Notes under the pieces: generated by a model
Database searches by the model: none
What the model was told of the DNA's origin: nothing
Seen by the model: the letters and a program-made list of their open reading frames with translations, nothing else
Position numbers and translations under genes: made by a program
Shown: one piece after another, positions 3,277-51,066 of the stretch
How the letters are laid out: the number at the start of each line of letters is the position of its first letter
Numbering within the stretch: position 1 is the stretch's first letter
Source: a virus
DNA length: 64,000 nt
IMG/VR virus record: IMGVR_UViG_3300029787_000018
Location: 1 to 64,000 of that record
Direction: 5' to 3' (one strand)

Positions 3277-3638
3277 TAAAATATTTGTTTGTCTGTTATT
3301 ATTACTATGTCGCTAGGTACCACCAAAACAGCAGCTTTGGCTTCTACCGTTTTTTCCTTTCCATTTTCAAATCTAGGTCTGAAAGGATGAAAAATATGTG
3401 GTCCGTGTTGCTTATAGTGGCACCATTTGCCAACAGCACCCGCATATCCGGCACTAGCTTTTACTATAACTCCCGTACAAAAATCGGCTTCGTGACCTTC
3501 TTCTTCAAATTTCATTTGTTGTATAGGATTGTCATAGGACACATCCGGAATAACAATAAAACCTTCTTTGGTCATTTGTTGGTTCTCCCACCATACAGGG
3601 GTAAGCTCCACAGGAACTTTATTATAATCTTTTTCCAT
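3276..3638 (-). CDS. groES: GroES-like co-chaperonin
   Basis: 120 residues, longer than cellular GroES (~97). The Cpn10 outline can be followed: an early T-x-EGFIVIP strand (as in T-x-x-GI-x-lP), a mobile-loop-like segment (about residues 35-50), a GVIVKASAG strand replacing the VvavGxG strand, an HIFHPF segment where GroES has GDxVlF, and a closing LVVPSDIVIITD, as in ilrExDilAv. The divergence and the insertion near residues 88-96 make this a remote match, but its position immediately before GroEL with overlapping stop/start strongly supports it. Expected role: lid of the phage chaperonin. Alternative: an unrelated beta-barrel protein. Confidence 0.75.
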   Translation of the reverse strand: MEKDYNKVPVELTPVWWENQQMTKEGFIVIPDVSYDNPIQQMKFEEEGHEADFCTGVIVKASAGYAGAVGKWCHYKQHGPHIFHPFRPRFENGKEKTVEAKAAVLVVPSDIVIITDKQIF

Positions 3639-3861
3639 TTCTTAAATTATTTACTTCATCAAAACAATCTCTACCGTTTTCGTCTAAACCCGATTCATCT
3701 ATAACACCGCTCCACATATGCCTAAAATATTCGACACCGTTCATTTCTCTTGGGTCTTTGGATTCTACCCAAATACCGTTATGGTACTCCATAGGTACGG
3801 ATATCTTATCCCATTTGGCAGAAAAAAACATACCTGTATGCTTTTTGAATATTACGCTCAA
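3622..3861 (-). CDS. Small hypothetical protein
   Basis: 79 residues, mixed charge, Trp/Tyr/His-rich (SAKWDKISV, YHNGIWVES, YFRHMWSG). No motif recognised. It overlaps the GroES-like gene by 17 nt and the upstream WDGH gene by 4 nt, which fits an operon with coupled translation. The coding frame is the only open one with phage-like composition here. Function unknown. Confidence 0.65.
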   Translation of the reverse strand: MSVIFKKHTGMFFSAKWDKISVPMEYHNGIWVESKDPREMNGVEYFRHMWSGVIDESGLDENGRDCFDEVNNLRNGKRL

Positions 3862-21856: not shown

Positions 21857-23218
21857 ATGAAAGCTAGAACTAAAAATCAAAAATGTGTTGTCCAACTTAA
21901 CAAAAGAATAAAGCCTCTAGGTGTACGAATTAAAAATTGGGCGAAAGATAGTATTCTTCAAAAAAGAGGTGTCAGATATAAGTCTGGCACCCTTAACTGT
22001 TTTGAATGCGGTCATAGGTGGAAAAGTGAGAGCAATGAAGCTTGGCACGATACTATCATGGAATACATATGTCCATGTTGTAAAAAAGAACTTGCCATTG
22101 AAGCTACCAATAAAAGAACTAAAAATGATAATGCATATTTTACTCATGTTACTACTATTGCCGAATACCAACTTATAAGAACTTTTAAAATAGATGTTAA
22201 ATATAAAGTTGGTAAAAAACCTAATTATGAAATTTATGAATGCTTTAGAGTATTTATAAATGAAAAAGGTCAAGGCGAAGTAGTAGGTTCTCTTAGAGGT
22301 GGTATGTTTTATTCTTACTTAGGTTTTTGGAATGGTCCAATGATATTAAGAGGTAAAAATACTATATATAGCAAATACACTGAACAAGGTACTTTATATC
22401 CTAAGTGGAAGCTTCAAGACTTTGTTATTAAAAGAGGTTTTTATTATTCTAAGTATCAAGAATCGGAATATATAGTCAGTCATGTTCTTATTGAATTGCT
22501 GAAAAACCATAAAGCTGAAACAATCTGGAAAGACGATAGGGTAATGTTATTCGACTATTGCATTTATGCAAAAAATAAAATAGAAAAGTACTGGCCAACG
22601 ATTAAAATATGTATTCGTAAAGGTTATGATATGCCTAGTATATCTTCTTATTTCGATATGCTGAACGCTCTGGAATATTTTGGAAAGGATTTACGTAACC
22701 CAAGATTTGTATGTCCGGATAACTTTTTTGAAGCGCATGATTATTGGATCAATAAAAAAGCTAAACGTGAAAAGATTTTAGAAGATAAGCTAAAACATGA
22801 AGAACGTATAGCCAAACTGAAAGCCAATAAAAAAGCTGGTAAGATTTACAACAAAAGAATGGAAGTATATAAAGACCTTTCTTTTGTTACTGATGATATT
22901 AAGATAGTACCATTGCTAAAAATTGCTGATGTGGCACTTGCAGGTGATCTTATGCATCACTGTATCTATAAAACCGATAGCTATTGGAAGGAAAAAGACA
23001 ATGTTCTATTTGGTACTTTTAAAGATAAAAAGCTTATAGAAACCACTCAGTTTTCATTAAAGGAAGGTAGATGCAAACATTCCTATGGTGTTAACAATAA
23101 AGAATCAAAACACCATAAAGAAATCGTAGGTATACTTAATAATGCCAAGGATACTATCAAGCGCTTATCAAGACCTAAAAGAAAGCCCAAGCCTAAAAAA
23201 GAATTGGTAGCGGCATAA
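21857..23218 (+). CDS. PcfJ-like protein
   Basis: 453 residues. An early CFECGHRW ... CPCC segment (about residues 50-75) is a likely zinc knuckle. The C-terminal ~100 residues carry the PcfJ pattern: a small 'LMHHCIY' motif with His-His-Cys, then YWKEKDNVLFGTF, ETTQFSLKEG and KHSYGVNN. It starts 2 nt after PcfK. Expected to act with PcfK, perhaps on DNA or RNA, but the activity is unknown. Confidence 0.85.
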   Translation: MKARTKNQKCVVQLNKRIKPLGVRIKNWAKDSILQKRGVRYKSGTLNCFECGHRWKSESNEAWHDTIMEYICPCCKKELAIEATNKRTKNDNAYFTHVTTIAEYQLIRTFKIDVKYKVGKKPNYEIYECFRVFINEKGQGEVVGSLRGGMFYSYLGFWNGPMILRGKNTIYSKYTEQGTLYPKWKLQDFVIKRGFYYSKYQESEYIVSHVLIELLKNHKAETIWKDDRVMLFDYCIYAKNKIEKYWPTIKICIRKGYDMPSISSYFDMLNALEYFGKDLRNPRFVCPDNFFEAHDYWINKKAKREKILEDKLKHEERIAKLKANKKAGKIYNKRMEVYKDLSFVTDDIKIVPLLKIADVALAGDLMHHCIYKTDSYWKEKDNVLFGTFKDKKLIETTQFSLKEGRCKHSYGVNNKESKHHKEIVGILNNAKDTIKRLSRPKRKPKPKKELVAA

Positions 23219-34984: not shown

Positions 34985-35014
34985 AACTACTCGAAAATAT
35001 AGAGTAGTTCTTTT
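34985..35014 (+). terminator. Intrinsic terminator at the convergent junction
   Basis: AACTACTC (34985-34992) pairs with GAGTAGTT (35002-35009), followed by CTTTTT on the + strand. On the - strand the A/T run also allows termination of the virion transcript. Confidence 0.75.
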
Positions 35015-38000
35015 TAAAAAATAGACTCTACCATTGATTTAGTTGTTCTTACTGCAGAAGGTATAAGCTTGTATTCGATCTTATCCAAATCCATGTAGTA
35101 ATTGGCATCCCAATAAGCACTCTCTGCAAACCTATTATCGGTGCTCAATGCAAATCCCCCAATAAGTCCTGACATTGCCAGACCTTTTAGCCCACTATCA
35201 AGTCGTTTGGCTAGCTCAGGACTTTCTTTTTGAAGCTTTTTACGATATTCTATATAATCTTTCGGATTCATGCTTTGAACCTCTGAAACCGTCTTAAAAA
35301 GCATTCTTAGCGAACCGATATGTTCGTTACCATAAATATCTATATCCTGTTTCGCGAATCTATCGTTTACAACAGTAGGTAAGAATCTTGAAAACTGCAA
35401 CATCATTCTACCTAAGCTATATTGCTGAATCAATCTTTGATCAGTAGCTTGATACCCTTTCCCTTGTGATTTCTTCACCTCGTTCTCCAACATGATCAAC
35501 CTTTGTTGATCAATAGGCTCTTCCATAGGTTTATACTCCCCGTTCTCGTCAAACTTGTTCCATTCGGCTTCGGTAAGCATACCCGCCATCTGAACACCTT
35601 GAATCCATTTCTCGCTCCACGTCATTGGCATAAGTGCCAAATCGCCCAAGAAATTATCAAGTCTCCCTTTTGAGGACATAGATACGTTATCGTATACATT
35701 GATATCCATAAAGTTCAACGTCTTTAGAATCTTCTGTGTTCTTTTCATTCGTTTTACAATATCAAATGGATTGGTCGTACTGGTATCCATACCCCAAAAA
35801 CGGCTTTCTCCTTTTGCCCATTCTTTTACAGAACCGTTTTTAATGTTATGGTACTTACCAGAGGCTACGTTACCCATGAAATAACTAGCGTTAAAACCTA
35901 ACTGCCAAAATAGGTTCATCTTAGTCAATAGGTCTACAACCTTATCTCCTTTTTCACCTAATAGGTTTTGTCGCTTGCCTTTTAAGTAGTAATCTTTCCA
36001 GTTCATTTTTACGTACTTACCGGCATTCTTTAAACCTTTGTCCTGGTTCAATGCAAGGACACCATCTACAACAGCTTGCATGCTCTTGAATCCTGCAAAG
36101 TTTTCATTACCGTTAACGAACAACGTAGAATGAACATAGCTGTTAAGCGCATGGTTTAAATCCATAGAAGGCATTTCGGTAGCTTTATTACTACGTGTAT
36201 TGGCAAATCGGTTCATAATACCGAAAGACAATGCAGAATCCATTTCAAAATCGGAAACTTCAATATCCGAACCGTCTTCATTTTTGCCGCTTTTTAAGAG
36301 CTTCTTAGCCTTGTTCTTTAAAAGAATGTAGTCTTTAATCTGCTTGGCATTATTCTTAGTGCTGGCCGACATAGCAGAGTATATGTTATCGATATCCTTA
36401 AAGCTAACAAGCTCTTTTTTGCCAGTGTCCGGATTATCGATATATAGCATTACTTCGTTTAAGGCGTCATCGCTATTTTTCGTAGATTGGAGCAACCCGA
36501 GAAGTCCTCTATTTGAAAAAGATTCAAATGTGCCCATAGAGGTGTGAGGTATATAGCCTCTCCTGACTCTTTTACCGTCTGAGGTAGAAGAAGGGGCAAG
36601 TTCTCCGGTAATGTCAGTGAAAGTTTTGTAGAAGTTGTATTCGGCTTCGGATAATCTGCCTTGCTCTTTAAGTTTGTTGATTTCTTCATTGCTTTTTAGT
36701 TTGAATTCTTTAATGACCTTACCCTCGGAAACAATCTCGTTCTCTTCTACAAGATTACCGTAAAGTATGTTGTAAAGGTCTTTTCTGTTGTGAATATAAC
36801 TATAATAGAAACGTTTTAAAATATCTATAGGGTTACCGCTATCGAACATGAAACCGAACTTCTCTTTGTAAAGTGCGTTCGTAGTTTCGTTGATCCTGGT
36901 AACGTATTTTTTCTTTTCGTTCTGAAACTGTTTCTCCATAGCTGTCATATTCCTTACCATACCTTGTATCTCTGGATGATTGGAAGGAATATTGTTAGCC
37001 ATTAACCAAGTTTGTACAGGACCAAGGTCTTCATTGGTTTTTGTACGTCCTGTCAACTTTGTTTGTTGAGCGGATATCTTTGCCGCCAACGCCTTTACTA
37101 TAGGTGTGGTAATATTGGCATACGCATAGGCATTTTTGGAACCGTACGTTCTATATAGTTCCATAAGCTTTTCGGGGCTGAACTGATTAAAGTCCTTACC
37201 CCTGAAGCTTTTGTTATATATTTCGTTGGCTCTCTTTTTTTCCTTTACGTATTCCTGATAAGCCTGGTTCTTGGATTCCTCTGTTTGAAACTTGTTGAAC
37301 TCCATGGCATCGTTGAACGTCTGCTTGTCCATAAAGTCCTGTGACTTGTAATCCCAGAACTCTTCACGAGCTTCCATGCCTATCGGCTCAGCTTTTTTTT
37401 TAACACGTGGAACAGGATTGTTGGAACTAGAAGTAATGGTAACTAAATCTATATCCAATTGGTTGTTCGTGCGTCTAGGAACTTTTTTTATCATTTTTGT
37501 AGCGTTCTTGGCTAAATGATTAAGTCTGTTCAACGTGTTTGAAATAGGCTTGTTGAATACTTCGGACTTGTTTCCTATAAACTTGTAAAGGTTCATATTG
37601 CCCTTGGCATCCCTTGACTTGAAGTAGAACTGTGTATTGTTCTCCAACGCTGCTCTGAACTGTGGGTTCTTTTGCATTTCTATCATAGCCTTTTCAGGTG
37701 ATAGCCCTTTAATGTCAAAGAAAGGAATATTGTTACGTACACCATTGATATCTTTAAGCATCAATATTTCTTCCAATTCCCTAAGCTCTGGACGCGTATA
37801 GGTTTTATCGTTTTTCTCCTTGAAATCTTGGTTAAGGTTCTCTACCAACATTTTGTTCGTGAACGAGTCGGTAATAGGCAACATGGACAAAGGACTTCCC
37901 CAACCGTTTTTGGTAAGGTCATAATAAACAAGTTTATATTGCAAGTCTGCAGGAAGTTCCGAAAACTCTTTGTTCATTCTACGTACCTCTTGGGTAGTAA

Positions 38001-41000
38001 GGCTTTCATCAAAGAAACTACTGTTCATAGAAATATAAGGCTTGTTTCCATCGAACTTCATATTAAGCCCTTGCGTAAGCAATAGATTGTTTTCAAGATT
38101 GCCTTCCATCTTAAGCCCGGCTATATATTCCGATAAATCTGCAAATACGCTGTTTTCATTTTTAGGATCAACTATTTCGGCCAACTCTTCTTTGGACATA
38201 TTGTTATATCCCGAAATATTGGAATGTAGGAACTTTGAAATACTTCTGGTATACTTCTTAATCTGGTTGTCGTTCAACAGTTCCATGCCTTGCTTAACGG
38301 CCAAGCCTTGTAGCAACTTGGTAATAGCGGGTCTATAAACCAAATCTATTTGTTTGGTATGTTCCAATGTAGCTTCTGCAGTATTCAAATACCTTTTTAA
38401 ATCTGGATTACTAGCCATTTCTGCAGGTATGTTCATCGTAGAATCCTCATTGTTCATAATACGCTTGAACTCTCCTATCTGCTTTTCCAACAAATATGGG
38501 TTGGTTTCAATACCGTTATGACCAGCCATAATCTTACTGACCTTTTGAATGTCGGCATTGACTTCATCCATTTTCATTATTAGGTTAATAATGTTGGACT
38601 GGTTTTTCTGGCTATAGAACTCTTTGTTATTGGTATTGGTAACTACGCCACCTGTAGAATTGGAATCATATTTTACGGTACCGTTATTACCATTGGAAAC
38701 AGACCTTTTAGCTAATTCTGTCAACATTTGCTTTCTAGGGGTGTAACCGTGGAACGCAGAATTGTTTTCGTTCATTATCGAAACATATTCTTTTACCATT
38801 GGAGCGTTCATCATAACGGCTACATCTTCAATAGGAATGTTGAGGTTGACCATTAAGGTAAAAGCCGATACCGTATGTTCGTTTATATTCAATGCATCCG
38901 CTGCATTTTCGTTAAGGTTGTCCAGAATAAGGTTGGCTACCAATGCAGATTTATGGTTACGGCTTTGATCACCTTCTCCCATATCCTCGAATATCTGGTA
39001 ATTGGTATTGTTTACCATTATACCTTCTTTCATATTGGCTCTGTACGCGGCAAGCGTATTGGCAATTCTATGCAAGTTGAAAACGGTACCGATATTCCTT
39101 TTGGCGATCATGGAATCCTCATAGGACTTTCTTCTGTACGATGGAGAAAATGCCAATGGCTGTTCTTTTACATAGTTAGGGAACTGCTCTTTGATATGTT
39201 CCTTTAACTTTTTACCTTCTCCGGAAGTGTCCATTGCCGTTTGAATGAACGGTGCCATTTTTTCACTAAGCCATAGCTTTTCCATACGGTCTATGACTTC
39301 GTTCATTTTTTTGTTTTTTCCTTTATGTTGGATGAACAAGGCATCACCATCTAAATCCGCACCTATTGTCTTACTGAAAGAAGTAGGTACCTGTACTTGG
39401 TTTCCTTTACCAACGGCAAACTCAACAGCTTCGAATATACCTGTAAAGTTTGGTCCGTTTGAAGGAACACGAGTGGCTATTACCGTTTCCCCAGGAACAT
39501 AATAACCGATTACCTTACCGTCTTTAAGAACGGTCTGTGTTTCAAGTTTTGGCGTTGTTTTATCCCTATTTTTATTAAGGTGTGCTACAAACTTGTCCGC
39601 AGCTTCTTTTAAACGCATAAGGTCGTTTTCTTGCGGTGTTTTGGTCTTGTCAAGATAACCGTTCGTATCAGTGGCTTTGATAGCCATTTCGCCTAATTTA
39701 CTATCAGGTGTATAGTATTTTCTGGCTCTTACCTTTCCATTTAAATGTTGGGGCAATACAATCTCCGCCCTATTAAGTCCTGTAGAAGCTTGCGTATAAC
39801 CGTTAAGCTCATTACTTCCTTTTATTTCTCCATCAACAGGCAATTCCCATCCATAACTAGACTTCTGGTGCGCATACGTACCAGCTATTCTTAACTTGTT
39901 ACCTTTTGACTTTAAAGTGTTCGCTAATTGATTGGAAACGATCTCTATTGCTCTAGGGTGTAGTATACCATATTTTTCGATAACGAACCTTTGGACTTGA
40001 TCCATGTCCTCTTTGTTCATTTCCTTGGTAACTATTTTATTATATGTAGCAACATCTTTCTTTTTAAGTTCATTGGTAACCTCGTTAAGGTTTTCGGACA
40101 TCATATCCGATATCAGTTCTTGTATCGCTTCGGCTTCTTCAAGATGCCCAAGATTTAAAGAATGAACTAATAGCGAGTTCATTTGCTGTACAGGTAACGT
40201 TACTTCATCGGTAACTTTATCCATTACTTGTTGTGGTCCAAAGTTGTAACCACTGATACCCATAAAACCACCTTTGGAATCATACATGATGTTGTCTTGG
40301 AACTCACCCGCTTTGGTAACTCCCTCTTCGTTCATAAGCTCGTTTAAGTATGGTGCATTCTCCATACCCTTGCCTTTTTGAATTCCCGTTTTCTCAGAAG
40401 AAAAAGGAATTGCTATCGGAAAGTAGTTCTCTAGACCATCGGTAAAGTTATCACTAGGCATTGCACCATTGTTCTTTTTAGCGTATGCATCGAACATTTT
40501 AGCACGTCTGGCTTTCATATGTTCGTATAATCCTTTGAACTTGTAGTTCTGATCAACAAAATCTTGGTCGATTATAGTAGTATATCCTTTAAGCAATACG
40601 GTGTTACCTCTAAAGTTCGGGTTGTCTTTTTCTACAGAGTAGTTAAGGAACTTGAAACCTTCATTCAAATCAAATACACCTTTACCAACATTAGCCCAGC
40701 GCTCAGCATCTTCTCTAAGTATGAACATACCACCATCGGTAGAAGCTTCATTATCTTTAGGGTCTTTAAAGAATATAGGCTCAAACTTTAAGTTCTTGTT
40801 TACGGATATAACAGGACTACCGGCATTCTTTAAACGCTTGGCAATACTTGATATCTTAATGTTAGGAGATACTACCTCAGCCATGAACAGACCGTTCATA
40901 ATTTGATTGTATACATATCCTTTTACAATTTTTTCTCCTTTAGGATTAAGCTTTCCGTTTTTATCGAACATAGATTTTAAAGAATCTATCTTCATAAGTT

Positions 41001-44000
41001 CCTTGCCGTTTTTATTAAAGAAATCAACTTCTTTTTCTCCTTCTTTAATCAACGATAAGTTAAACTGACGTTTACTTATATTTTCCTCAGATATATTTCT
41101 GTAAATATTATAAGCCGCAGTAGTAGTATCGTTGGACATATCAAGCCTTTTAGTAGGCATGTAATACTTTCTAGGACTATCACCGAAAACACCGACGTTC
41201 GCCAAATATGTTTTTTTGTTAAGTCCGGAAGCGTACATCATAAAGTCCTCAAAGGACTGTTCGTATGAAGTACTGTCCTCAAATGCATTGGCATTGTTGC
41301 TTACGCTATCATCGATACCGGTATAGTAAACAAGGTCTGGTTTGTTTCCAGCTACTACACTATCATAGAAATTGTCCAAAAATTGATTAGGAACGGGTTT
41401 GCTGTACGCTTTTGAACGAGTGATATGAGAATACCTTTTTATAAAATCGGCTTTAGGAATCACGTCACCGTCCTTATTAGGGCGTAATGAATCGTACATC
41501 TGGTCAAGCTCTTTGGTCATGTGGTTGTTCATCATACGAACAGGAACCATATTTCCTTTGGCATTCTCTACAACACTATCTTGGGTAAACTCCCTATTAG
41601 TAGCCATAATAGCATTGGCAATAGGTCTAAAGTTATAAGGGTACATATACCTGTTACCGTTCTTGGCGGGTTTACCTAAATGCTTGTCGTTATCGATAAA
41701 GCTTTTAAGAACTGTTACAGGGCTATAGTAAGTACCTTTTACGTTGATAAAACCATTTTCCAATATATCCATCATTTTTACGTCAGGAGGTGCCATAAAT
41801 CGATATGCCTTTACGTAATCTTCATTAGTAGCAGTATCGTCTTTTATTCTAGCTACGATACCCTCGAACTCCGACCATTGATCACCTAATAAATGACCGC
41901 TCTTTTTAAGCATGTAATCTCTGGCTTTAGCCATATTGTCCATCATGTCTTGTGCTTGGCTCTGCTCTCTTTTAGATAAAGATTCTTCAATAGAGTGGTT
42001 TATTTTGCCATCGTTCTCCGACATAACGGACTTAACGGCATTTACCATTCTATAGTTGGAGAACAGCGTCCATGTAGAATTCAAAAGAACGGTTTTGGCT
42101 TCCGGTGCACGTAGTTCCAAAAATTTGTTGAATGCTTGGATATCCGCATGAGGACTGTTTTCAAGTGCGTCTATAAAATCAACGGAGTTGTTTGTATTGG
42201 CAGCCAATTGGAACATCTTGTACCTAAACTCTTTCTTATCGAATAAAGGACCTTGCTTGCCCCATATGCTTTTTCTAAGCCTAATGGCACGATTGTACTC
42301 TTTTACAAAGTTGTTGATTATTTTGGTAGCCTTAGCTGTTCTGGTCATAAAGCTTTTTTCCGCTATACTGATAACGTTATCGGCATCCTCTTGGTTGTCC
42401 GCAACCTCATCTAGTATCTGGTCTAAAGCATCCTCTTTTCTAGTGAACAAGTTCTTGTTCTCTTCCGGGTCAAAATTGGCAACTTCTTCTTCAAGCCTGC
42501 TCTTGACCTTTACCCTACGTTGCATGATGTTTGCATCGTAAGCTGTGGAGCGAGATTCAAAACCTATTTCGGTAGCTTCTATTCTAGGTACTTCTTTAAG
42601 GAACTCCATAACGATGTAATCCCTCATATTATCAATTGAAAGATCTTGGCCGTCGTTAAGCTTTTGAATAAGCTCTTGGCTTTCCTGTAAGTAAGTAGGT
42701 TCAGATTTAGCCTTGGTATCTATCATCTTCCACCACTTACGGGTAGTATTGGTTCTTTTAGCTTCTGTACTAAGACCAAAGAAATTATTGTACTTTTTAG
42801 AAAGAGGACCTTGCATAGTAGCTACAAAGGCTTCTTCCAGAATGTATTTCTGCTCGGCCAAAGGTAAAATAGATGCTCCGTACTCAACTAGGTCTTCCTC
42901 GGTAGGTTTACCTGAGAACGTTCCTACTTCTTTACTTTCACCAACACCAAAATTATATAGAACATAATCTGGATATCTTTCAGCTATTTCATTTACAAGC
43001 TTTTTGTTTGCCATGACCTGTTCCAGGACCGCTTTGGTTTCTGGTCTGTCCTTTGCGAATCTGTAGAAGATGTGTGTCATTTCGTGCATGAACACTTCGC
43101 CTTGGTTCCATTCATCGCTACGAACGAATACTGCTGCAGAAACAGCAAGTCCGGTACCTCGTATACCCAACGCTTTTACAAGGTCGTCAAGTATGTATGC
43201 ATTTACCCTACTATCAGCTTTAGGGAACATAAAGTTCAAACGCTGATTAATGGCAACCATTTTATCAAGGTCGCTAGGACTGTTACGTATACGTCCTATA
43301 ATAGGAGCTTCGGCTCTGTTCTCTTCAAGAGGTTCGTTGTTCTCCTCAAAGGTTACGAACTCGTCGGCTTCATTTTGTTCAGATAACTCTGAATTTGATT
43401 CAGCTAATTCATCGCCTCTTGATTCCATAAAAGGACCAACTCCTTTTTTATAAGCATCTATAGCACTACTAAGTTTCTTTTTGATCTTAGTAGCCTGGCT
43501 TTTGATTTGCTTCTTTGTTTTGTTAACCTGCTTTGGCTCGGCTTGCTTGTTAACAAAGTTCTGGAACTGCTTGGATTTATCCTTGGCGGTTTCTTTTACC
43601 TTGTCAAAAGTATCGTTGAATTTGTCTACTATTTCCTGCTCTTTGGGAGTCAACGATTTTTGACCTTTTATTTTAGCTACGATATCATCGTACGTCTTTT
43701 TTGCTAAACCTTTAGGTAATGCTTTATTAGCTTTAGCCTTAGCTTTTTCTGCTAGTTCTGAAATACGTTTCTTAACCTCTTTGGCACGTTGCTCTCTTTT
43801 AGAAGCATCTTCCTTAGATTCTTTTTTCTTGGGCTTACTAAGTGTTTCGGACTCTTCTTCCAAATCACTAAGCTCATTTAATTCATCCTCTGTAATATCA
43901 TCTGAAACCTCACCCGTTACATCATCTGATTCTACACTATCGTTTTCCCCATTTTCTTCTCCCTGAACGTCTCCGGCAGTAGCACCATCGATTTCATTAT

Positions 44001-46284
44001 CGCCATCTGTTCCTTGTCCAGTAGGTGACGTAGGTGGTACACCTTCGCCATCTTCTCGTTGGGATTCAGTTTCTTCGGTGGTTGCAACTTCCTCGGTGGT
44101 TTCTGATTCTTCTGATACATCATCTTTGTTTTTATTAAATAGATTGTCGAAAAGGCTTTTAGCTTTATTTCCTAGTTCCGATATTTTGCCAATGGCTTTC
44201 TTGCCTATATTGGCACCGTCGTACTCCGCATTATCTTTAAGGACTTCTGCTTGGTTGTTCTTTTTAAGAATATCCTCGTTCGATTTTTGTACAAAGTATT
44301 TGTAGTCGGCTTTGGCAAGTCCCGTAGCTATAATATCCTGACCTCTTTCGTTTTTAACCTGTATAGGTTCTACAACGTTCTCAACAGCCTTACCTAGAAT
44401 AAGGTTGGCTTTGTTCGCTTGCGCTTGGGCTATACCATAAGTAAGACCCTGAATCGTTTTATCTGTTTCAGCAGTACGCTCATTGATTTCCGATTCTATT
44501 TGTTGTTCTGTAAGATTACTATTTACTAATATTTCAATAACATTTTCAAGTTTTGATTTTTCTACCTCAACCTGTTCTTGAAAGAACATTTCGGCACTAT
44601 GGTTCAAGAACAACGCATGCTTACCTCTAATGTTAAGCTGTTCGGCTTGGTTATCGAGTACCATGTAATCATCGATATCTTCTTGCATTTTTTGAGCTTC
44701 TTCCTCAGTAATAATACCTTCTTTGATAAGGTTCTGTGAATAGCTCTCGAACATTTCCGTTTTGTCCTGTAGCACCATATCCGATATGGTTTCACGCATA
44801 TGGAACTTCTGCATTTCATTGCCTTTTTCATCGGCACTATCAAAAATAGTTTTAAGGTTCTCCGTTCGGTTGTATAATTGTCTTGAACGCTCGGCATCCT
44901 TATTGATGCCCGATACTATACCAGATACACCGCCACCAAGGGCACCTAATGCAAATGCAATGGTTTTCGTTCCTTCGTTCTCTTCACTGTTATAGAACTC
45001 CATGAAACTACCGTATTCTGGTTCTGTACCCATTACGTCGCTTTCAGCCATCATAGCCGCCCAGCTTTCATAAGTCTCTTGGAAAGTTTCTTCGTAACCT
45101 TCCTGTAAAGCTTTACCCGATGCACTTACCAATTTTCTTAAAGTAGGTGAAGTCTTTGCCGTAAAAGCCTTGGATATATTTTTAAAATTCTTGCTTGAAT
45201 CAAAAGCCTGTTTACCTTTCTTGATAAGATTGGACTGCTTTAATATCTTTCCGGCATTACCGTAGGTCATACCCCATGAAAGAATATCAACAGCCATATA
45301 CTTTAGGTTGTTACTAAATGTTTTCGCTGCAATATCGGATAGTTCATCATTGGTAAACAAAGGGTTTCCGTTTTCGTCGGTAAGTTCTTTTCTTGAATTG
45401 TATGCTTCTGCAGAATTCAATAGACCGGAGATAACGTTACTTGCCATACCACCTGCAATATTCTCAACAGCGGCTCCTGCAGTATTGGTAAGTTTCCCTA
45501 AATCGGTAACAGCTTTTCCTATACCTTTTCCCGTACCAGCAACTTCCATTACTTCGTCAGCTCCACTAGCAAGTTTCTTGGAACCGTTTTTAAGTGTTCC
45601 CTTGGCATTTTTGATAAGACCTTTTTTAAGGGCTTTTCCAGCTAATGCATTACTACCTCTTTTTGCCAATGCTCCCGCACCTTTAGAAAGGAATATAAAC
45701 TCTGCTAATTGTGGAATATACTCGGCACCATGTTTAGACCAGAATTGAGGGTCGGCCAAGGTTTTGATAGAGAACTCGGGGTTTTTAAGTTCCTCTGGCA
45801 TGTACACTTGGTTGTTCTCTGAAATGCCTTCTCCTTTTTCCTGTAGGAATCTTGAAATTACGTTACCGTCGAACATATCTATACCCGGAACGGCAGAACC
45901 TACTACTTGTGCTACGTCGCCAAATCCACCGATAACGTGATCACCTATACCACGCATAAAGGAAACTCCCGCTTCGGTAACCCAATCCCTACCACTTACA
46001 TCGGCACCAACGGAATTTTCTCCCGCTTCTGGTTCGTACTGTTGCTTTGCACCTAACGGGTCGTTCTTGGATTGAACGGCACTACCTATAGACGCTTGTC
46101 TTTCTTGGGCGTTTGGAAATACGGCTTTCGGCTGTTCAGGTTCTTTAGCAGTTGGTTGTTTCGGATCGGTATTCTCTTGACCTTTCTCGGTTTGGTAATC
46201 AGGGTTGTTCTCTTCCGCTTGGGTACCCTCTTCTTCAACTCCTTGCTTTTGTAAGGAGCTGATGTAATTTTTAAAATTTGGCAT
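35014..46284 (-). CDS. Giant virion polyprotein with RNA polymerase and zincin domains
   Basis: 3756 residues, the largest gene here. N-terminal ~600: internal-virion type helical region with a hydrophobic stretch near residue 190. About 700-1010: long Glu/Lys/Ser-rich, disordered linker. A zincin metalloprotease site follows: HEMTH (His1067, Glu1068, His1071), with EEAFVATM some 75 residues on as a possible third ligand. RNA polymerase: ATRVPSNGPNF (Arg2272) and GADLDGDALF (Asp2310, 2312, 2314), the same order and nearly the same spacing as the RAPT ... NADFDGD of bacterial beta'. Single-chain polymerases of this type are known from crAss-like phages, where they enter the cell with the DNA. 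The protease might mature the polyprotein (inference). Last gene of the virion transcript. Confidence 0.85.
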   Translation of the reverse strand: MPNFKNYISSLQKQGVEEEGTQAEENNPDYQTEKGQENTDPKQPTAKEPEQPKAVFPNAQERQASIGSAVQSKNDPLGAKQQYEPEAGENSVGADVSGRDWVTEAGVSFMRGIGDHVIGGFGDVAQVVGSAVPGIDMFDGNVISRFLQEKGEGISENNQVYMPEELKNPEFSIKTLADPQFWSKHGAEYIPQLAEFIFLSKGAGALAKRGSNALAGKALKKGLIKNAKGTLKNGSKKLASGADEVMEVAGTGKGIGKAVTDLGKLTNTAGAAVENIAGGMASNVISGLLNSAEAYNSRKELTDENGNPLFTNDELSDIAAKTFSNNLKYMAVDILSWGMTYGNAGKILKQSNLIKKGKQAFDSSKNFKNISKAFTAKTSPTLRKLVSASGKALQEGYEETFQETYESWAAMMAESDVMGTEPEYGSFMEFYNSEENEGTKTIAFALGALGGGVSGIVSGINKDAERSRQLYNRTENLKTIFDSADEKGNEMQKFHMRETISDMVLQDKTEMFESYSQNLIKEGIITEEEAQKMQEDIDDYMVLDNQAEQLNIRGKHALFLNHSAEMFFQEQVEVEKSKLENVIEILVNSNLTEQQIESEINERTAETDKTIQGLTYGIAQAQANKANLILGKAVENVVEPIQVKNERGQDIIATGLAKADYKYFVQKSNEDILKKNNQAEVLKDNAEYDGANIGKKAIGKISELGNKAKSLFDNLFNKNKDDVSEESETTEEVATTEETESQREDGEGVPPTSPTGQGTDGDNEIDGATAGDVQGEENGENDSVESDDVTGEVSDDITEDELNELSDLEEESETLSKPKKKESKEDASKREQRAKEVKKRISELAEKAKAKANKALPKGLAKKTYDDIVAKIKGQKSLTPKEQEIVDKFNDTFDKVKETAKDKSKQFQNFVNKQAEPKQVNKTKKQIKSQATKIKKKLSSAIDAYKKGVGPFMESRGDELAESNSELSEQNEADEFVTFEENNEPLEENRAEAPIIGRIRNSPSDLDKMVAINQRLNFMFPKADSRVNAYILDDLVKALGIRGTGLAVSAAVFVRSDEWNQGEVFMHEMTHIFYRFAKDRPETKAVLEQVMANKKLVNEIAERYPDYVLYNFGVGESKEVGTFSGKPTEEDLVEYGASILPLAEQKYILEEAFVATMQGPLSKKYNNFFGLSTEAKRTNTTRKWWKMIDTKAKSEPTYLQESQELIQKLNDGQDLSIDNMRDYIVMEFLKEVPRIEATEIGFESRSTAYDANIMQRRVKVKSRLEEEVANFDPEENKNLFTRKEDALDQILDEVADNQEDADNVISIAEKSFMTRTAKATKIINNFVKEYNRAIRLRKSIWGKQGPLFDKKEFRYKMFQLAANTNNSVDFIDALENSPHADIQAFNKFLELRAPEAKTVLLNSTWTLFSNYRMVNAVKSVMSENDGKINHSIEESLSKREQSQAQDMMDNMAKARDYMLKKSGHLLGDQWSEFEGIVARIKDDTATNEDYVKAYRFMAPPDVKMMDILENGFINVKGTYYSPVTVLKSFIDNDKHLGKPAKNGNRYMYPYNFRPIANAIMATNREFTQDSVVENAKGNMVPVRMMNNHMTKELDQMYDSLRPNKDGDVIPKADFIKRYSHITRSKAYSKPVPNQFLDNFYDSVVAGNKPDLVYYTGIDDSVSNNANAFEDSTSYEQSFEDFMMYASGLNKKTYLANVGVFGDSPRKYYMPTKRLDMSNDTTTAAYNIYRNISEENISKRQFNLSLIKEGEKEVDFFNKNGKELMKIDSLKSMFDKNGKLNPKGEKIVKGYVYNQIMNGLFMAEVVSPNIKISSIAKRLKNAGSPVISVNKNLKFEPIFFKDPKDNEASTDGGMFILREDAERWANVGKGVFDLNEGFKFLNYSVEKDNPNFRGNTVLLKGYTTIIDQDFVDQNYKFKGLYEHMKARRAKMFDAYAKKNNGAMPSDNFTDGLENYFPIAIPFSSEKTGIQKGKGMENAPYLNELMNEEGVTKAGEFQDNIMYDSKGGFMGISGYNFGPQQVMDKVTDEVTLPVQQMNSLLVHSLNLGHLEEAEAIQELISDMMSENLNEVTNELKKKDVATYNKIVTKEMNKEDMDQVQRFVIEKYGILHPRAIEIVSNQLANTLKSKGNKLRIAGTYAHQKSSYGWELPVDGEIKGSNELNGYTQASTGLNRAEIVLPQHLNGKVRARKYYTPDSKLGEMAIKATDTNGYLDKTKTPQENDLMRLKEAADKFVAHLNKNRDKTTPKLETQTVLKDGKVIGYYVPGETVIATRVPSNGPNFTGIFEAVEFAVGKGNQVQVPTSFSKTIGADLDGDALFIQHKGKNKKMNEVIDRMEKLWLSEKMAPFIQTAMDTSGEGKKLKEHIKEQFPNYVKEQPLAFSPSYRRKSYEDSMIAKRNIGTVFNLHRIANTLAAYRANMKEGIMVNNTNYQIFEDMGEGDQSRNHKSALVANLILDNLNENAADALNINEHTVSAFTLMVNLNIPIEDVAVMMNAPMVKEYVSIMNENNSAFHGYTPRKQMLTELAKRSVSNGNNGTVKYDSNSTGGVVTNTNNKEFYSQKNQSNIINLIMKMDEVNADIQKVSKIMAGHNGIETNPYLLEKQIGEFKRIMNNEDSTMNIPAEMASNPDLKRYLNTAEATLEHTKQIDLVYRPAITKLLQGLAVKQGMELLNDNQIKKYTRSISKFLHSNISGYNNMSKEELAEIVDPKNENSVFADLSEYIAGLKMEGNLENNLLLTQGLNMKFDGNKPYISMNSSFFDESLTTQEVRRMNKEFSELPADLQYKLVYYDLTKNGWGSPLSMLPITDSFTNKMLVENLNQDFKEKNDKTYTRPELRELEEILMLKDINGVRNNIPFFDIKGLSPEKAMIEMQKNPQFRAALENNTQFYFKSRDAKGNMNLYKFIGNKSEVFNKPISNTLNRLNHLAKNATKMIKKVPRRTNNQLDIDLVTITSSSNNPVPRVKKKAEPIGMEAREEFWDYKSQDFMDKQTFNDAMEFNKFQTEESKNQAYQEYVKEKKRANEIYNKSFRGKDFNQFSPEKLMELYRTYGSKNAYAYANITTPIVKALAAKISAQQTKLTGRTKTNEDLGPVQTWLMANNIPSNHPEIQGMVRNMTAMEKQFQNEKKKYVTRINETTNALYKEKFGFMFDSGNPIDILKRFYYSYIHNRKDLYNILYGNLVEENEIVSEGKVIKEFKLKSNEEINKLKEQGRLSEAEYNFYKTFTDITGELAPSSTSDGKRVRRGYIPHTSMGTFESFSNRGLLGLLQSTKNSDDALNEVMLYIDNPDTGKKELVSFKDIDNIYSAMSASTKNNAKQIKDYILLKNKAKKLLKSGKNEDGSDIEVSDFEMDSALSFGIMNRFANTRSNKATEMPSMDLNHALNSYVHSTLFVNGNENFAGFKSMQAVVDGVLALNQDKGLKNAGKYVKMNWKDYYLKGKRQNLLGEKGDKVVDLLTKMNLFWQLGFNASYFMGNVASGKYHNIKNGSVKEWAKGESRFWGMDTSTTNPFDIVKRMKRTQKILKTLNFMDINVYDNVSMSSKGRLDNFLGDLALMPMTWSEKWIQGVQMAGMLTEAEWNKFDENGEYKPMEEPIDQQRLIMLENEVKKSQGKGYQATDQRLIQQYSLGRMMLQFSRFLPTVVNDRFAKQDIDIYGNEHIGSLRMLFKTVSEVQSMNPKDYIEYRKKLQKESPELAKRLDSGLKGLAMSGLIGGFALSTDNRFAESAYWDANYYMDLDKIEYKLIPSAVRTTKSMVESIF

Positions 46285-46286
46285 AA

Positions 46287-48236
46287 TTACTCTTTGTTAA
46301 TTTGCAAATATCTATTGTAAGTACTTTTCCATAAATCTCCGGTTTCCTTATTGTCGGCAATGTCTTGCTCACTAGCACCTTGATTCATTTCGCTTACTAA
46401 GATATCAATAAGTTCTTCATCCGAAGTATCGTGTCCAAAAGTTCTCATAAGTTTTGCCGTTTGTGGTACGGTTTCCATAAACTTGTGGAACTCTTGACTA
46501 TTTGGTTTAGCACCCGTAATAGCGTAAAAAGACTTCATTATACTAGACCTGTTAACGCTAGGTTCATCAGGCTTGGAATACATCTGTGCTTCGTTTAAAA
46601 AGTTCGGATCGTTTTCCACTTGTGAATCTATCGTCAACAATACATTATCGAAGTTCTGTTCCGCTTGTGCCGTTGATGCTTCCGCTTGCTGAAATTCGCT
46701 ATCAAGTCTTTGTGAAGCTTCATTCTGCTTTTTAAGGTCGTCGGCACTACCCAACAATACGGAAAGTCCTCTACGTGCCGCGCTGTCCTCTACATTCACA
46801 CGCTTATAGTATATTCTTTCGTTATCACTGTTTTTAAGAGCAAGGAAATAACTCATTTTAACCTCTGAACCGTCAAGGGCTTCAACATGGTCTTTTTGCT
46901 CTTTGGCTTTAATCTCCCCATCATCGTCCATGATATTCATAACGATTTGGTTGTTGCCGTTTTTATCTTTTGCCAATAATCCGGTGATAACACCTAAGTT
47001 TTCATATTCGGTGTCGTACTCGCCTTTTTCAAACTTGTTCCTGCCCGTCATTTCTATACCTTGGCTACTATATATTTCATCTATATCGGCAGGGTCGAAT
47101 CTATACTGACCTCTTTCGTTAGGTTCTCGGTTCAAGAAATATTCTGCCCACGTGTCCTTATGTGGTCCAGCTACTTCTTTAGCTTCTGCAGGTTTCCATC
47201 TGTCTCCCCAAAGTCTGCTAATGTTCCTTGAAGTCCTATCGTCGGTATGGATTTTAAAACCGTCTTTCTTTTCGGTTACGGAATATGAATCATGCTTCCA
47301 ATCGCTTTGTACGTTGTCCGAAACAAAAGTATCTCCGGATTTCTGTAGCTTGTCCATAATCTTTTTAGGTTGGAAAGAACCTGTTTTGGTTTCAAACAGA
47401 TCGTTTACCGTAGTTCCTTTTTTGATTACATGGCTCTGCATAGCCAAAAGATTGGTCGTATGTAATTGTGGCCTGGTATCTGGTTTTACCTTAACATCTT
47501 TTGTTGCTTGCAATGCTTTTTCTTGTGCAAGCTTTTGTTTTAATCTTAATGTTTCACGGTTACTTCCTTTTTTACCGTAACCCATTAAAGACATAAAGCC
47601 TAACAACTTTTCAGTAGTAGGCTGTTGGTCTTCTGGAAAGTTGGTCATATAGTTACCAAGGACTTTCATGTAATTGTCTTCGTTAAACAAAATATCGGTC
47701 ATAGGAATATCTTTCCCTAGATCGTAATTATTGTCGTTGGGCATTTCTATTTCGGACATTAAACCAGAATAGGTAATATTGCCTTCTCCTGTTTGTTCGT
47801 AATGTTCCAATGCTTTCTTATCCCTCATAGAAATACGATGTCCAAAACCTTTCTCCATAGCATCTTTAATCTTTACGGAGTTTTCCTTATTGGTAATATA
47901 AGTCTGGAACTCTGGTGTACTCTTAATATCCTCTGTAAAGTTTTCCATAATGGAACGACCACCATTTTTAAGAAACTCGGCTCTATTGCCACCGTACATA
48001 GCAACCTTGTTTCTTATACTGTTGTGCATCTTACTGACCATCTTATCAAAGCGCTCTCTGTCCGGACCAAGCATTTTATCAGCTTCAGCGTTCAACCGCT
48101 CGTAATAGGCGGCTTCTTGCGCAGAAGCTTGTTCTTTTCTAGCGTTCTCTTGATCAACAAAAGTATTTAACGCTAAATGAGATTGTAAGTTTGATTGCGC
48201 TCCGTTAGAACGTTGCATTGATTGTCTTGGATCCAT
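46287..48236 (-). CDS. Internal virion (cargo/ejection) protein
   Basis: 649 residues, polar and largely helical, with Gln/Asn/Ala-rich N-terminus (NLQSHLALNTFVDQENARKE) and extended charged regions. No enzyme motif. It lies between the transglycosylase-like protein and the RNA polymerase polyprotein with almost no gaps. By analogy with T7 internal core proteins and crAss-like cargo proteins it is probably packaged in the head or tail and ejected (inference from order and composition). Confidence 0.7.
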   Translation of the reverse strand: MDPRQSMQRSNGAQSNLQSHLALNTFVDQENARKEQASAQEAAYYERLNAEADKMLGPDRERFDKMVSKMHNSIRNKVAMYGGNRAEFLKNGGRSIMENFTEDIKSTPEFQTYITNKENSVKIKDAMEKGFGHRISMRDKKALEHYEQTGEGNITYSGLMSEIEMPNDNNYDLGKDIPMTDILFNEDNYMKVLGNYMTNFPEDQQPTTEKLLGFMSLMGYGKKGSNRETLRLKQKLAQEKALQATKDVKVKPDTRPQLHTTNLLAMQSHVIKKGTTVNDLFETKTGSFQPKKIMDKLQKSGDTFVSDNVQSDWKHDSYSVTEKKDGFKIHTDDRTSRNISRLWGDRWKPAEAKEVAGPHKDTWAEYFLNREPNERGQYRFDPADIDEIYSSQGIEMTGRNKFEKGEYDTEYENLGVITGLLAKDKNGNNQIVMNIMDDDGEIKAKEQKDHVEALDGSEVKMSYFLALKNSDNERIYYKRVNVEDSAARRGLSVLLGSADDLKKQNEASQRLDSEFQQAEASTAQAEQNFDNVLLTIDSQVENDPNFLNEAQMYSKPDEPSVNRSSIMKSFYAITGAKPNSQEFHKFMETVPQTAKLMRTFGHDTSDEELIDILVSEMNQGASEQDIADNKETGDLWKSTYNRYLQINKE

Positions 48237-50513
48237 TTAAGAAATATTTATATTGTCGTAATTAACGGTTTCTTTTTGAGATAAAAACTGTTTGTCGTCA
48301 ATATCTTTATACAACATTGATTTATAATCGCCTGTTTCAATAGCCGATTCCATTAAAGGTTGGCTTACATTTGAGAAATCGGTATTCTTAGCAAAGTCAA
48401 CAGCTTTTACAAGACTGTCTATATCACCGGTCTTTGATGCAGCCAAATTTAAAAACTTATTTCCTTCTTGACTTAAAGTAGGAACCGTTTCTTTTAAGTA
48501 ATCGACTTTGGTATTGTTCTGCTTGATAGGATTGATAACATTGTTCATGTACCATGACCTAGTACCTTTTTTGGTACCTTTACCATCGTCTTTCATATCT
48601 GGGTCATAGCCAAATGCTTTTTGGCGTATCTGTGACATTAGCATATGTGATGCGGTACCAGGTGCGTTTTGTGCCGCATCGGCAAGTGCATCTGACATAG
48701 CCCCAAAACCTGCAAATGCTAGGTCGGTACCGTCTTGACGTGTTTGTAAATCCATTGCTTGCTTGGTCTTGGTATTGTCTATATCCCTACGAGAATCGAA
48801 ATCGTTGATATAGCTCATTACCTCGCCGTACTTATCAAGTGCCGCTTGCTTTTCTTGAAAGTCAGCAATGGCAATATCGTTATTCGCTTTTAGTCTATTA
48901 TAATCCAATTGTCCTTGGTTACCCAATACAAGGTTTCTATTACCACCGGAAGCTTCTACGATATTGTTCATCATGGATGAATACGCACTTGCGGCATCGT
49001 CTTTAAGCTTTGCCTCTATTTCTGGTGGCAATCCCATTTGAGCTACTTTTTGAAGCTTGGCCGCATAATCAAGTACCCCTTGCGATATCTGCTCTGTACG
49101 CATAGGTACATCTGCATTGGCTCTTTCCATACCCGCAATACCTACCATAGCGTTTCCTATAGCTTCAAAAGGTATACTAGGCTCAAAGTCCTTTTTATCG
49201 TATACCATATCTTGCGGTTCTTCAAGATACTCCCTATCCAAGTAGCTCATTAATTGAGCTCGTTTTTCGGCATTAGCATCCTCAACGGAACTTACTTCTA
49301 TCGGAACAGCGTTACCGTCTTTAGCTACAGTTGTTGTAGTAGCAACTTCTGTTTTCTTAGGTTGTTCGTTCTTTAGGTTTTTTTCCTTTGGAACAACATC
49401 CGTATTAGCGATACTGAAATCGGCTATATTAGAATTGTCAACGCTAAAATCCAAGTCTATGAACTCGTCGTTCTTATTATCGAAAAGGTCTATTTTATTA
49501 AACGGTCCAAAACCTGTAGGTATAGAAATACCGTATTTTTTATCATCGATCAATTCTTTTAAGCTACCGAACTCTTTACCACTGAACTTCTGAGCGTTGT
49601 CCATGATGTACTTACTTACACCGTTACCGCTTTTGGTAAGTCCTAAAGAAGTTGTGTACTTACCGTTATTGGTCTTATGGAAAGCTTTGGCAAACTCTGG
49701 ATTGTTCTTGCTGATTTCATCAACAAGTTTTCTTCCCTTTTCGGTTTCAATACTTAAATGGTGGTATGGTCTACCACCAGAAGCTTTAGCCTTAATGTTT
49801 CCTTTGATTTCTTTATAGAACTCTTGGAACAAGGCTTTTTCGGTTTCAAAATTGTTTATCTTCTTTCCTAGTTCGGCATTGATAATGTCTGAATAACCTT
49901 TGTTGTAGAACTCTTGTTTGAGTTCCTTCATCCTAAGCTTTTTACCGCCATCGGTATACTCGTCGTTATTCTGAATTTTCTCCATCCTAGAAATGTATTC
50001 GTTTACATTTTTAGTCTGTTCTTCTTTAGGTATAAGCGTACTTTCCTGTACGGGCTGGGCTTCAAATTCAAGAAGTCCTTTTTTACCTTTTTCAAGGTAT
50101 CTTTCCACACCCATGTTATTACCTCCCGGTTCAAACTTACCACCTTGGATATATGTCAATGCAGCTTTAGGACTCATGTGATATAGCTGTCCTATTTCGT
50201 CCAAGTCTAAATTCCTTTTGTTCTTAGACGCATTGTTCTTTACGAAAGAGTACATTTTAGGCATATACTCCTTTTCAAAAAACTCATCTTGAAGTTCTGC
50301 GGATTTTTTAAAATCCTCTTCATTGATATCCCCGTAACCCGCTTTTTTGGCAAACTTCTTTATCGGTTCCCACCAATACTTAGGATGGAACTGATACTTA
50401 CCTATTGCTTTGGTATCCTTGTTCACCGCTGCAATATCACCACCGTTCGTTTCTGAATAGTATAATCTAGCCCTTACGGCTGCCGTTAATTGTTTTAGTC
50501 CTGGGTTATCCAT
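48237..50513 (-). CDS. Virion transglycosylase-like ejection protein
   Basis: 758 residues from ATG 50513, which overlaps the preceding stop by 8 nt; a longer reading to 50552 is less likely. Residues ~10-130 resemble a lysozyme/transglycosylase: RARLYYSETNGGD holds a likely catalytic Glu, IGKYQFHPKYWWEP matches 'G-x-YQF-x-x-x-tW', and QLYHMSPKAALTYI a later helix. The rest is polar, helical and unrecognised, in the manner of internal proteins. Role: local opening of peptidoglycan during DNA entry. Confidence 0.75.
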   Translation of the reverse strand: MDNPGLKQLTAAVRARLYYSETNGGDIAAVNKDTKAIGKYQFHPKYWWEPIKKFAKKAGYGDINEEDFKKSAELQDEFFEKEYMPKMYSFVKNNASKNKRNLDLDEIGQLYHMSPKAALTYIQGGKFEPGGNNMGVERYLEKGKKGLLEFEAQPVQESTLIPKEEQTKNVNEYISRMEKIQNNDEYTDGGKKLRMKELKQEFYNKGYSDIINAELGKKINNFETEKALFQEFYKEIKGNIKAKASGGRPYHHLSIETEKGRKLVDEISKNNPEFAKAFHKTNNGKYTTSLGLTKSGNGVSKYIMDNAQKFSGKEFGSLKELIDDKKYGISIPTGFGPFNKIDLFDNKNDEFIDLDFSVDNSNIADFSIANTDVVPKEKNLKNEQPKKTEVATTTTVAKDGNAVPIEVSSVEDANAEKRAQLMSYLDREYLEEPQDMVYDKKDFEPSIPFEAIGNAMVGIAGMERANADVPMRTEQISQGVLDYAAKLQKVAQMGLPPEIEAKLKDDAASAYSSMMNNIVEASGGNRNLVLGNQGQLDYNRLKANNDIAIADFQEKQAALDKYGEVMSYINDFDSRRDIDNTKTKQAMDLQTRQDGTDLAFAGFGAMSDALADAAQNAPGTASHMLMSQIRQKAFGYDPDMKDDGKGTKKGTRSWYMNNVINPIKQNNTKVDYLKETVPTLSQEGNKFLNLAASKTGDIDSLVKAVDFAKNTDFSNVSQPLMESAIETGDYKSMLYKDIDDKQFLSQKETVNYDNINIS

Positions 50514-51066
50514 AATTCGGGTTGTAAGTTTTTTGTTGTTTGCCGTAAACATTGCTCTGTGCTTGTGATACTTGACGTCCTTGCATCAAATAATAGGAAC
50601 GTTTTCTTTCATCTTTTGTAGATGCCAACATATCCTCGTACTCCTTATTTTCTTTTTCAAGACGTATCTTTTTATCTTTATTGGAATCGATTATACCAGC
50701 GCCTAAACCTAATGCCCCTCCTATAGCCGCACCCCATGGACCACCTACTTTCATACCCAATGAAGCACCTTTTAAAGTAGAACCCATTGTTTGTGCCTTG
50801 CTTTCTGCAGTACTGCTGGATACGCTTTGAAAATTAGCATATTGCTCTGCGCCAAAATTCATGATATCCCCTGCAGACGCTAATGCGTTCGCTCCTATAT
50901 CCATTTTAGGTTTGGCACCAACGGAATTTGGCGTAGGAATATCAACACCATTTTCTAGTATAGGTGCGTTTATATCTATTTTTTCAAGCTTTACCGGGTT
51001 AACAGGCATTGTAGGCATGTATTGATTTACCGGTAAAGGTTCTCCTGTATATGGGTTTATTTTCAT
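50506..51066 (-). CDS. Small internal virion protein with Gly-rich hydrophobic segment
   Basis: 186 residues. Pro-rich start (NPYTGEPLPVNQYMPTMP), then a Gly/Ala-rich hydrophobic stretch (SLGMKVGGPWGAAIGGALGL) and a charged helical tail. Size, hydrophobic centre and order before two large ejection proteins match T7 gp14 (outer-membrane pore of the ejection channel). The analogy is inference; there is no sequence proof. Confidence 0.65.
   Translation of the reverse strand: MKINPYTGEPLPVNQYMPTMPVNPVKLEKIDINAPILENGVDIPTPNSVGAKPKMDIGANALASAGDIMNFGAEQYANFQSVSSSTAESKAQTMGSTLKGASLGMKVGGPWGAAIGGALGLGAGIIDSNKDKKIRLEKENKEYEDMLASTKDERKRSYYLMQGRQVSQAQSNVYGKQQKTYNPNYG

Follow-up and report, generated by a model that had tools for sequence, protein, structure and literature searches.

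The closest described counterparts of the locus analyzed here are encoded by crAss-like phages. In crAss001, the separate proteins gp47, gp49 and gp50 have been detected in virions by mass spectrometry (PMC10172136, also the source of the gene numbering and virion content of this phage), and genes g065–g067 of Cellulophaga phage phi14:2, of which g066 encodes the virion RNA polymerase of structure 6VR4, are annotated from virion proteomics. Two further systems resemble the locus in general design: the N4-type virion RNA polymerase, a huge virion chain (~3500 aa) in which an RNA polymerase is fused to a zincin-type domain (PMC5512222), and gp96 of Thermus phage P23-45, in which an ejected virion protein is joined to a two-barrel virion RNA polymerase (PMC10770324).

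The window, a stretch of 64,000 nucleotides from the 77,139-base virus record IMGVR_UViG_3300029787_000018, contains a giant gene. Judged by profiles and a predicted fold, its product is very distantly related to the crAss-like phage virion RNA polymerase and carries in the same chain partner proteins for which most relatives have separate genes. It shares with phi14:2 the fold, the RxPxxG and DxDxD motifs, the module order and the late-operon position behind the stabilization protein. However, phi14:2 has three genes, reads DFDID and carries its zincin in g065, behind the polymerase, whereas the giant is one chain with DLDGD and a zincin ahead of the polymerase, and its sequence identity to crAss polymerases is only ~14%. 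The N4 protein has a T7-like polymerase with the zincin behind it and thus works alike but belongs to a different family; no T7-like single-subunit domain was indicated in the giant, for which both fold and profiles point to a two-barrel polymerase. P23-45 gp96 differs in its fusion to a siphovirus tape measure and in its RNA polymerase family, and the available part of its description reports no zincin.

The giant frame and its relatives

Translation of the window gave a single ATG-to-stop frame of 3756 residues running from 46284 to 35014; the original prediction had located it correctly but left out that it lies on the minus strand. The motifs listed there, HEMTH at residues 1067–1071, DLDGD at 2310–2314 and ATRVPSNGP with Arg2272, 38 residues ahead of the Asp, were all exact. 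By composition, 0.03 HExxH and 0.05 DxDGD motifs would be expected per chain by chance, against one of each observed, and chance can be set aside because both are conserved in the relatives described below.

Pfam and PHROGs look-ups and a PDB sequence search with the giant protein gave no match, a search for near DNA and tblastn of the polymerase core and of the C terminus against named phages returned nothing, and peptide-pattern scans built on the single sequence found no relative. The first method to reveal the family was a degenerate DNA pattern for G[AS]DxDGDAL[FY], which matched 15 IMG/VR contigs, all encoding a giant relative over long stretches; a second scan, using an alignment of those relatives, raised the family to 19 loci. 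At least 13 distinct complete relatives are present in IMG/VR (3775–4163 aa, 25–46% identity within matched segments). All 13 consist of a single open frame and carry DxDGD, which is found in every relative, and HExxH is present in 12 of the 13. An assembly error fusing separate frames was rejected because all 13 share this single-frame form. A cellular origin was also rejected: alignment-derived patterns matched no relative in 84,980 GTDB genomes. The most distant family member (L117/L137) reads HELTGH instead of HExxH; same-strand genes follow downstream of its giant gene, in contrast to the convergent early genes elsewhere in the family. By sequence comparison, the giant family is a previously unsampled group of ~20 uncultured phages.

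Polymerase core and flanking modules

Profiles of phi14:2 and crAss001 transcription-block proteins were built from 80 viral contigs and compared (hhalign) with slices of the giant family; off-target pairs scored no more than 11% and reversed profiles no more than 0.8%. In this comparison, the chain splits into crAss-like transcription-block proteins in the phi14:2 gene order: a g067-like part, a zincin-like part, the RNA polymerase (g066) and a g065/gp49-like part. The conservation profile displays three blocks (residues 100–500, 1000–2800 and 3000–3700) separated by two hypervariable linkers (500–1000 and 2800–3000) with identity of 0.12–0.19. The coordinates of all features are presented in Table 1.

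Table 1 Features of the giant gene and its upstream neighbors (coordinates are those of the window)
Feature	Coordinates	Strand	Basis
Giant gene, 3756 aa, 424 kDa	35014..46284	-	final gene of late operon; open frame and relatives
C-terminal module, residues 3057–3700, homologous to phi14:2 g065 / crAss001 gp49 (RNA polymerase-associated virion proteins)	35185..37116	-	hhalign 99.0–99.2%, E 5e-18 to 2e-19
Variable linker, residues 2800–3000	37285..37887	-	identity 0.12–0.16
Predicted two-barrel RNA polymerase, residues ~1770–2774	37963..40977	-	hhalign 99.8%, E 5e-29, 893 columns (phi14:2 g066); model fits 6VR4
DLDGD catalytic loop, residues 2310–2314	39343..39357	-	conserved motif; model
Arg2272 of RxPxxG motif, invariant	39469..39471	-	alignment
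Zincin-like domain, residues ~1030–1160	42805..43197	-	90–95% against crAss zincins, reversed <1%
HEMTH motif, residues 1067–1071	43072..43086	-	conserved motif
Acidic variable linker, residues 697–816, net charge -33	43837..44196	-	mean identity 0.13–0.19 over residues 500–1000
N-terminal module, residues 93–450, homologous to phi14:2 g067 (virion structural protein)	44935..46008	-	hhalign 95.6%, E 1e-8
649-aa gene in position of cargo protein gp46	46287..48236	-	position only; kept beside giant in relatives
771-aa gene in position of cargo protein gp45	48237..50552	-	position only
Tail stabilization/muzzle protein of crAss type, 1552 aa	51066..55724	-	tblastn E 6e-15 to crAss-like stabilization proteins; phrog_28748 E 2.9e-25

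The idea of a single-chain RNA polymerase related to the crAss-like virion enzyme, proposed from the letters of one sequence, was borne out by the profiles, in which similarity to phi14:2 g066 extends over several hundred residues; the match to crAss001 gp50 reached 98.7%. Slices to the left of the motif, at the motif and to its right matched the crAss polymerase separately (97.1, 95.9 and 98.3%, with reversed controls of 0.1%), and the crAss polymerase HMM matched the giant directly (E 1.9e-9), as did that of gp49 (E 4.3e-6). No frame of the record other than the giant reached the HMMER inclusion threshold in this search. The R[VI]PxxGP pattern was found in 14 of 16 sequences, always 38 residues ahead of the Asp (14/14). 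An alignment of 14 diverged sequences shows no or almost no variation at any of the Asp and Gly positions of DxDGD, at Arg, Pro and Gly of RxPxxG, or at residues in the GNxL region.

One additional piece of evidence was provided by an AlphaFold2 model of residues 1755–2800 (pLDDT 74.9, pTM 0.70). The structure that it resembles most is 6VR4 (Foldseek E 7e-14; Z 20.3, 4.5 A over 812 residues); next come P74-26 gp62 (P74 gp62, related to P23-45 gp96 as a phage RNA polymerase), QDE-1 and then plant RDR2. The model fits QDE-1 over ~450 residues, and the barrel bearing the DxDGD loop (model residues 376–595) fits cellular large subunits at 2.4 A. The overall fit is that of two double-psi barrels in one predicted chain, the fold that had been expected. 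The accompanying statement that crAss-like polymerases carry DxDGD has to be corrected: DFDID is found in phi14:2 and in nearly every crAss-like polymerase of our sample, and in our alignments DxDGD is the mark of the giant lineage.

The two ends of the chain, previously described as long and internal-protein-like, instead have homologs in the transcription block of crAss phages, namely g067/gp47 and g065/gp49; in the libraries searched, the flanking modules matched g067 and g065 and not tape measures. A tighter slice of the N-terminal module scored 91.2% against g067 (reversed control 0.2%). The acidic linker noted earlier is real, and the most acidic stretch lies at about the same place in several relatives. 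A conserved membrane helix was not found: the one hydrophobic segment above threshold in the window protein (442–460) is absent at that place in relatives.

Neither the size nor the fusion is new in kind, contrary to the first impression: crAss-like RNA polymerase genes of up to ~6000 aa have been published (PMC10136315), and fused chains were also found here among 80 crAss-like loci. In IMG/VR contigs L041, L044, L050, L060, L063, L067, L072 and L082, a g067-like part, zincin and polymerase, or a g067-like part, polymerase and g065, form a single chain, as in the giant. However, these chains occupy a separate branch of the polymerase tree and read DFDID, and those with all parts exceed the giant by 1,400–1,900 residues, with a zincin that is dead.

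The zincin-like domain

The zincin-like region scored 90% against the crAss HExxH domains located ahead of the RNA polymerase and 95% against those at the g065 N terminus. H1067, E1068 and H1071 are retained in all members but one, and Glu1151, invariant in 7/7 aligned sequences, is likely the third zinc ligand. No Pfam hit was obtained for the region, and the AlphaFold2 model was poor (pLDDT 59) and had no PDB match. Thus, of the zincin protease originally proposed, the motif, the downstream Glu and the homology to crAss HExxH domains stand, whereas the fold model is too weak to use. No published description of the crAss zincin was found in literature of incomplete coverage, and the domain may already be known.

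These data raise a key question: does the protease cut the chain to free the polymerase, as was first suggested? In such a self-processing polyprotein, the zincin would cut, for example, in the linkers at 500–1000 and 2800–3000 and release the polymerase and its partner subunits as three proteins, as in phi14:2. The HExxH and invariant Glu are intact in nearly all members, the hypervariable linkers sit at module borders, and processing has been proposed for the zincins of phage polyvalent proteins, with P1 DdrB being processed before packaging (PMC5512222). However, the domain is also present where the polymerase is already a separate gene (phi14:2 g065, HEIMH), and the N4 virion RNA polymerase has a zincin yet is packaged uncut (PMC5512222). 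Moreover, in the all-in-one crAss-like chains of 5,200–5,640 aa (L060, L063, L067 and relatives), the extension before the polymerase keeps the zincin domain with HEAFH changed to WEAFR, that is, dead. The linkers contain no conserved site, and one clade member reads HELTGH. This comparative evidence weakens the proposal to the point that we regard self-processing as unlikely, and release of the polymerase by the zincin is probably not the rule. An effector role after injection is possible, as is cutting at a defined moment in the giant clade only; most likely, the zincin would act on a protein of the host or the phage once it has been delivered, and self-cutting of the giant is the less favored option.

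At the corresponding zincin site, crAss001 gp49 reads EEFAH. The gp47 homolog of cr85_1 (L003:26112-33668) combines an ADP-ribosyltransferase domain of the polyvalent-protein type (PF18760, E 7e-21) with a HEAFH zincin motif; the crAss cargo proteins thus include several domains that are likely to be injected effectors.

Gene neighborhood, proposed role and lineage

In the window and in nearly all relatives, the giant gene closes the late operon and converges with early genes. Upstream on the same strand lie the 649-aa, 771-aa and stabilization/muzzle genes, followed by tail, capsid, portal and terminase genes, and the order of stabilization gene, two cargo-position genes and giant, with convergent genes downstream, recurs with a single exception among the relatives in which it can be seen. 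The arrangement in cr85_1, whose annotation follows crAss001, is the same and runs into the genes that take the positions of gp45, gp46 and gp47. A sequence link of the 649-aa and 771-aa genes to gp46 and gp45 was not found among targets that may have missed some homologs. The giant gene therefore lies in the late operon beside stabilization and cargo genes, the latter by position only.

A D12-class adenine methyltransferase gene (PF02086; 33906–34631, +) adjoins the end of the giant gene. Elsewhere, the window encodes a GroEL-type chaperonin (1594–3276, -; phrog_5725, E 1e-100), a PcfJ-like protein (21857–23218, +; PF14284, E 2e-19) of a family named from conjugative plasmids, and an 840-aa DarB-like/PLxRFG polyvalent protein with a methylase part (16341–18863, +). 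The last is 34–37% identical over 92–99% to proteins of Serratia, Klebsiella, Vibrio, Pseudomonas and Ruegeria phages, whose hosts are only remotely related to the Bacteroidota, the hosts to be expected of a crAss-like phage. A search for an early promoter motif was negative, as 10- and 12-mers in the gaps before plus-strand genes did not exceed shuffles; a ACTTTTAAA-like sequence stands just before several early starts (8533, 10501, 11212, 15543 and 32448, upstream of plus-strand genes), with a count not above that in shuffled sequence.

Because the giant gene comes last in the late operon and runs toward the early genes, its product is most likely packaged, ejected and used for early transcription. 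We consider it very probable that the giant is a two-barrel RNA polymerase of the crAss-like type that is packaged in the virion and has its ejection and partner modules within the one chain. On the grounds of homology and position, it would be made late with the structural proteins, packed as cargo in the head or tail, and ejected ahead of or with the DNA; it would then refold in the host cell and transcribe the early genes facing it independently of the host RNA polymerase. The terminal modules would most likely serve to dock the giant inside the virion and to direct either its ejection or the entry of DNA.

A polymerase that is made late, stays out of the virion and transcribes late genes is improbable: two-barrel non-virion RNA polymerases do exist in phages, such as P23-45 gp64 (PMC10770324), but the giant is fused to modules homologous to virion proteins, and its gene is the last of the structural operon, following the cargo-position genes, so that the product would arrive too late to start late transcription. 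Still more remote is a chain that keeps the polymerase fold mainly for DNA binding or ejection without catalysis, since, even if crAss RNA polymerases evolve very fast (PMC7886860), the DxDGD, RxPxxG and GNxL-region residues have stayed invariant or nearly so.

The giant polymerase belongs to a distinct lineage. A quick polymerase tree split the 16 giants from all 72 crAss-like sequences by a fully supported branch, under a midpoint root that is unsure given the long branches. TerL matched crAss-like and Flavobacterium/Cellulophaga phages at 23–26% identity among the matches listed, the stabilization protein matched crAss-like phages, and the MCP matched nothing. What is new is this lineage, apparently the sister group of all crAss-like polymerases in our sample and with DxDGD for DFDID, together with its stable compact single-chain form. 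We tentatively suggest, as a less secure reading, that these phages are a deep sister lineage of all known crAss-like phages and that everything they inject for transcription (ejection module, active protease, two-barrel polymerase and polymerase partner) would work as one uncut ~424-kDa molecule keeping the cellular-polymerase DxDGD that crAss-like phages changed to DFDID.

The giant clade can serve as a compact outgroup for crAss RNA polymerases, whose evolution is very fast. The fusion predicts that crAss gp47, gp49 and gp50, encoded separately and all present in the virions of crAss001, associate in a single complex. A zincin accompanies an injected polymerase in the N4 type and, on the reading above, also in the unrelated giant type, which suggests a shared need. 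Since zincins occur in live and dead form, in fused as well as unfused chains, the old proposal of a processing role for them on injected phage proteins can be put to a direct test.
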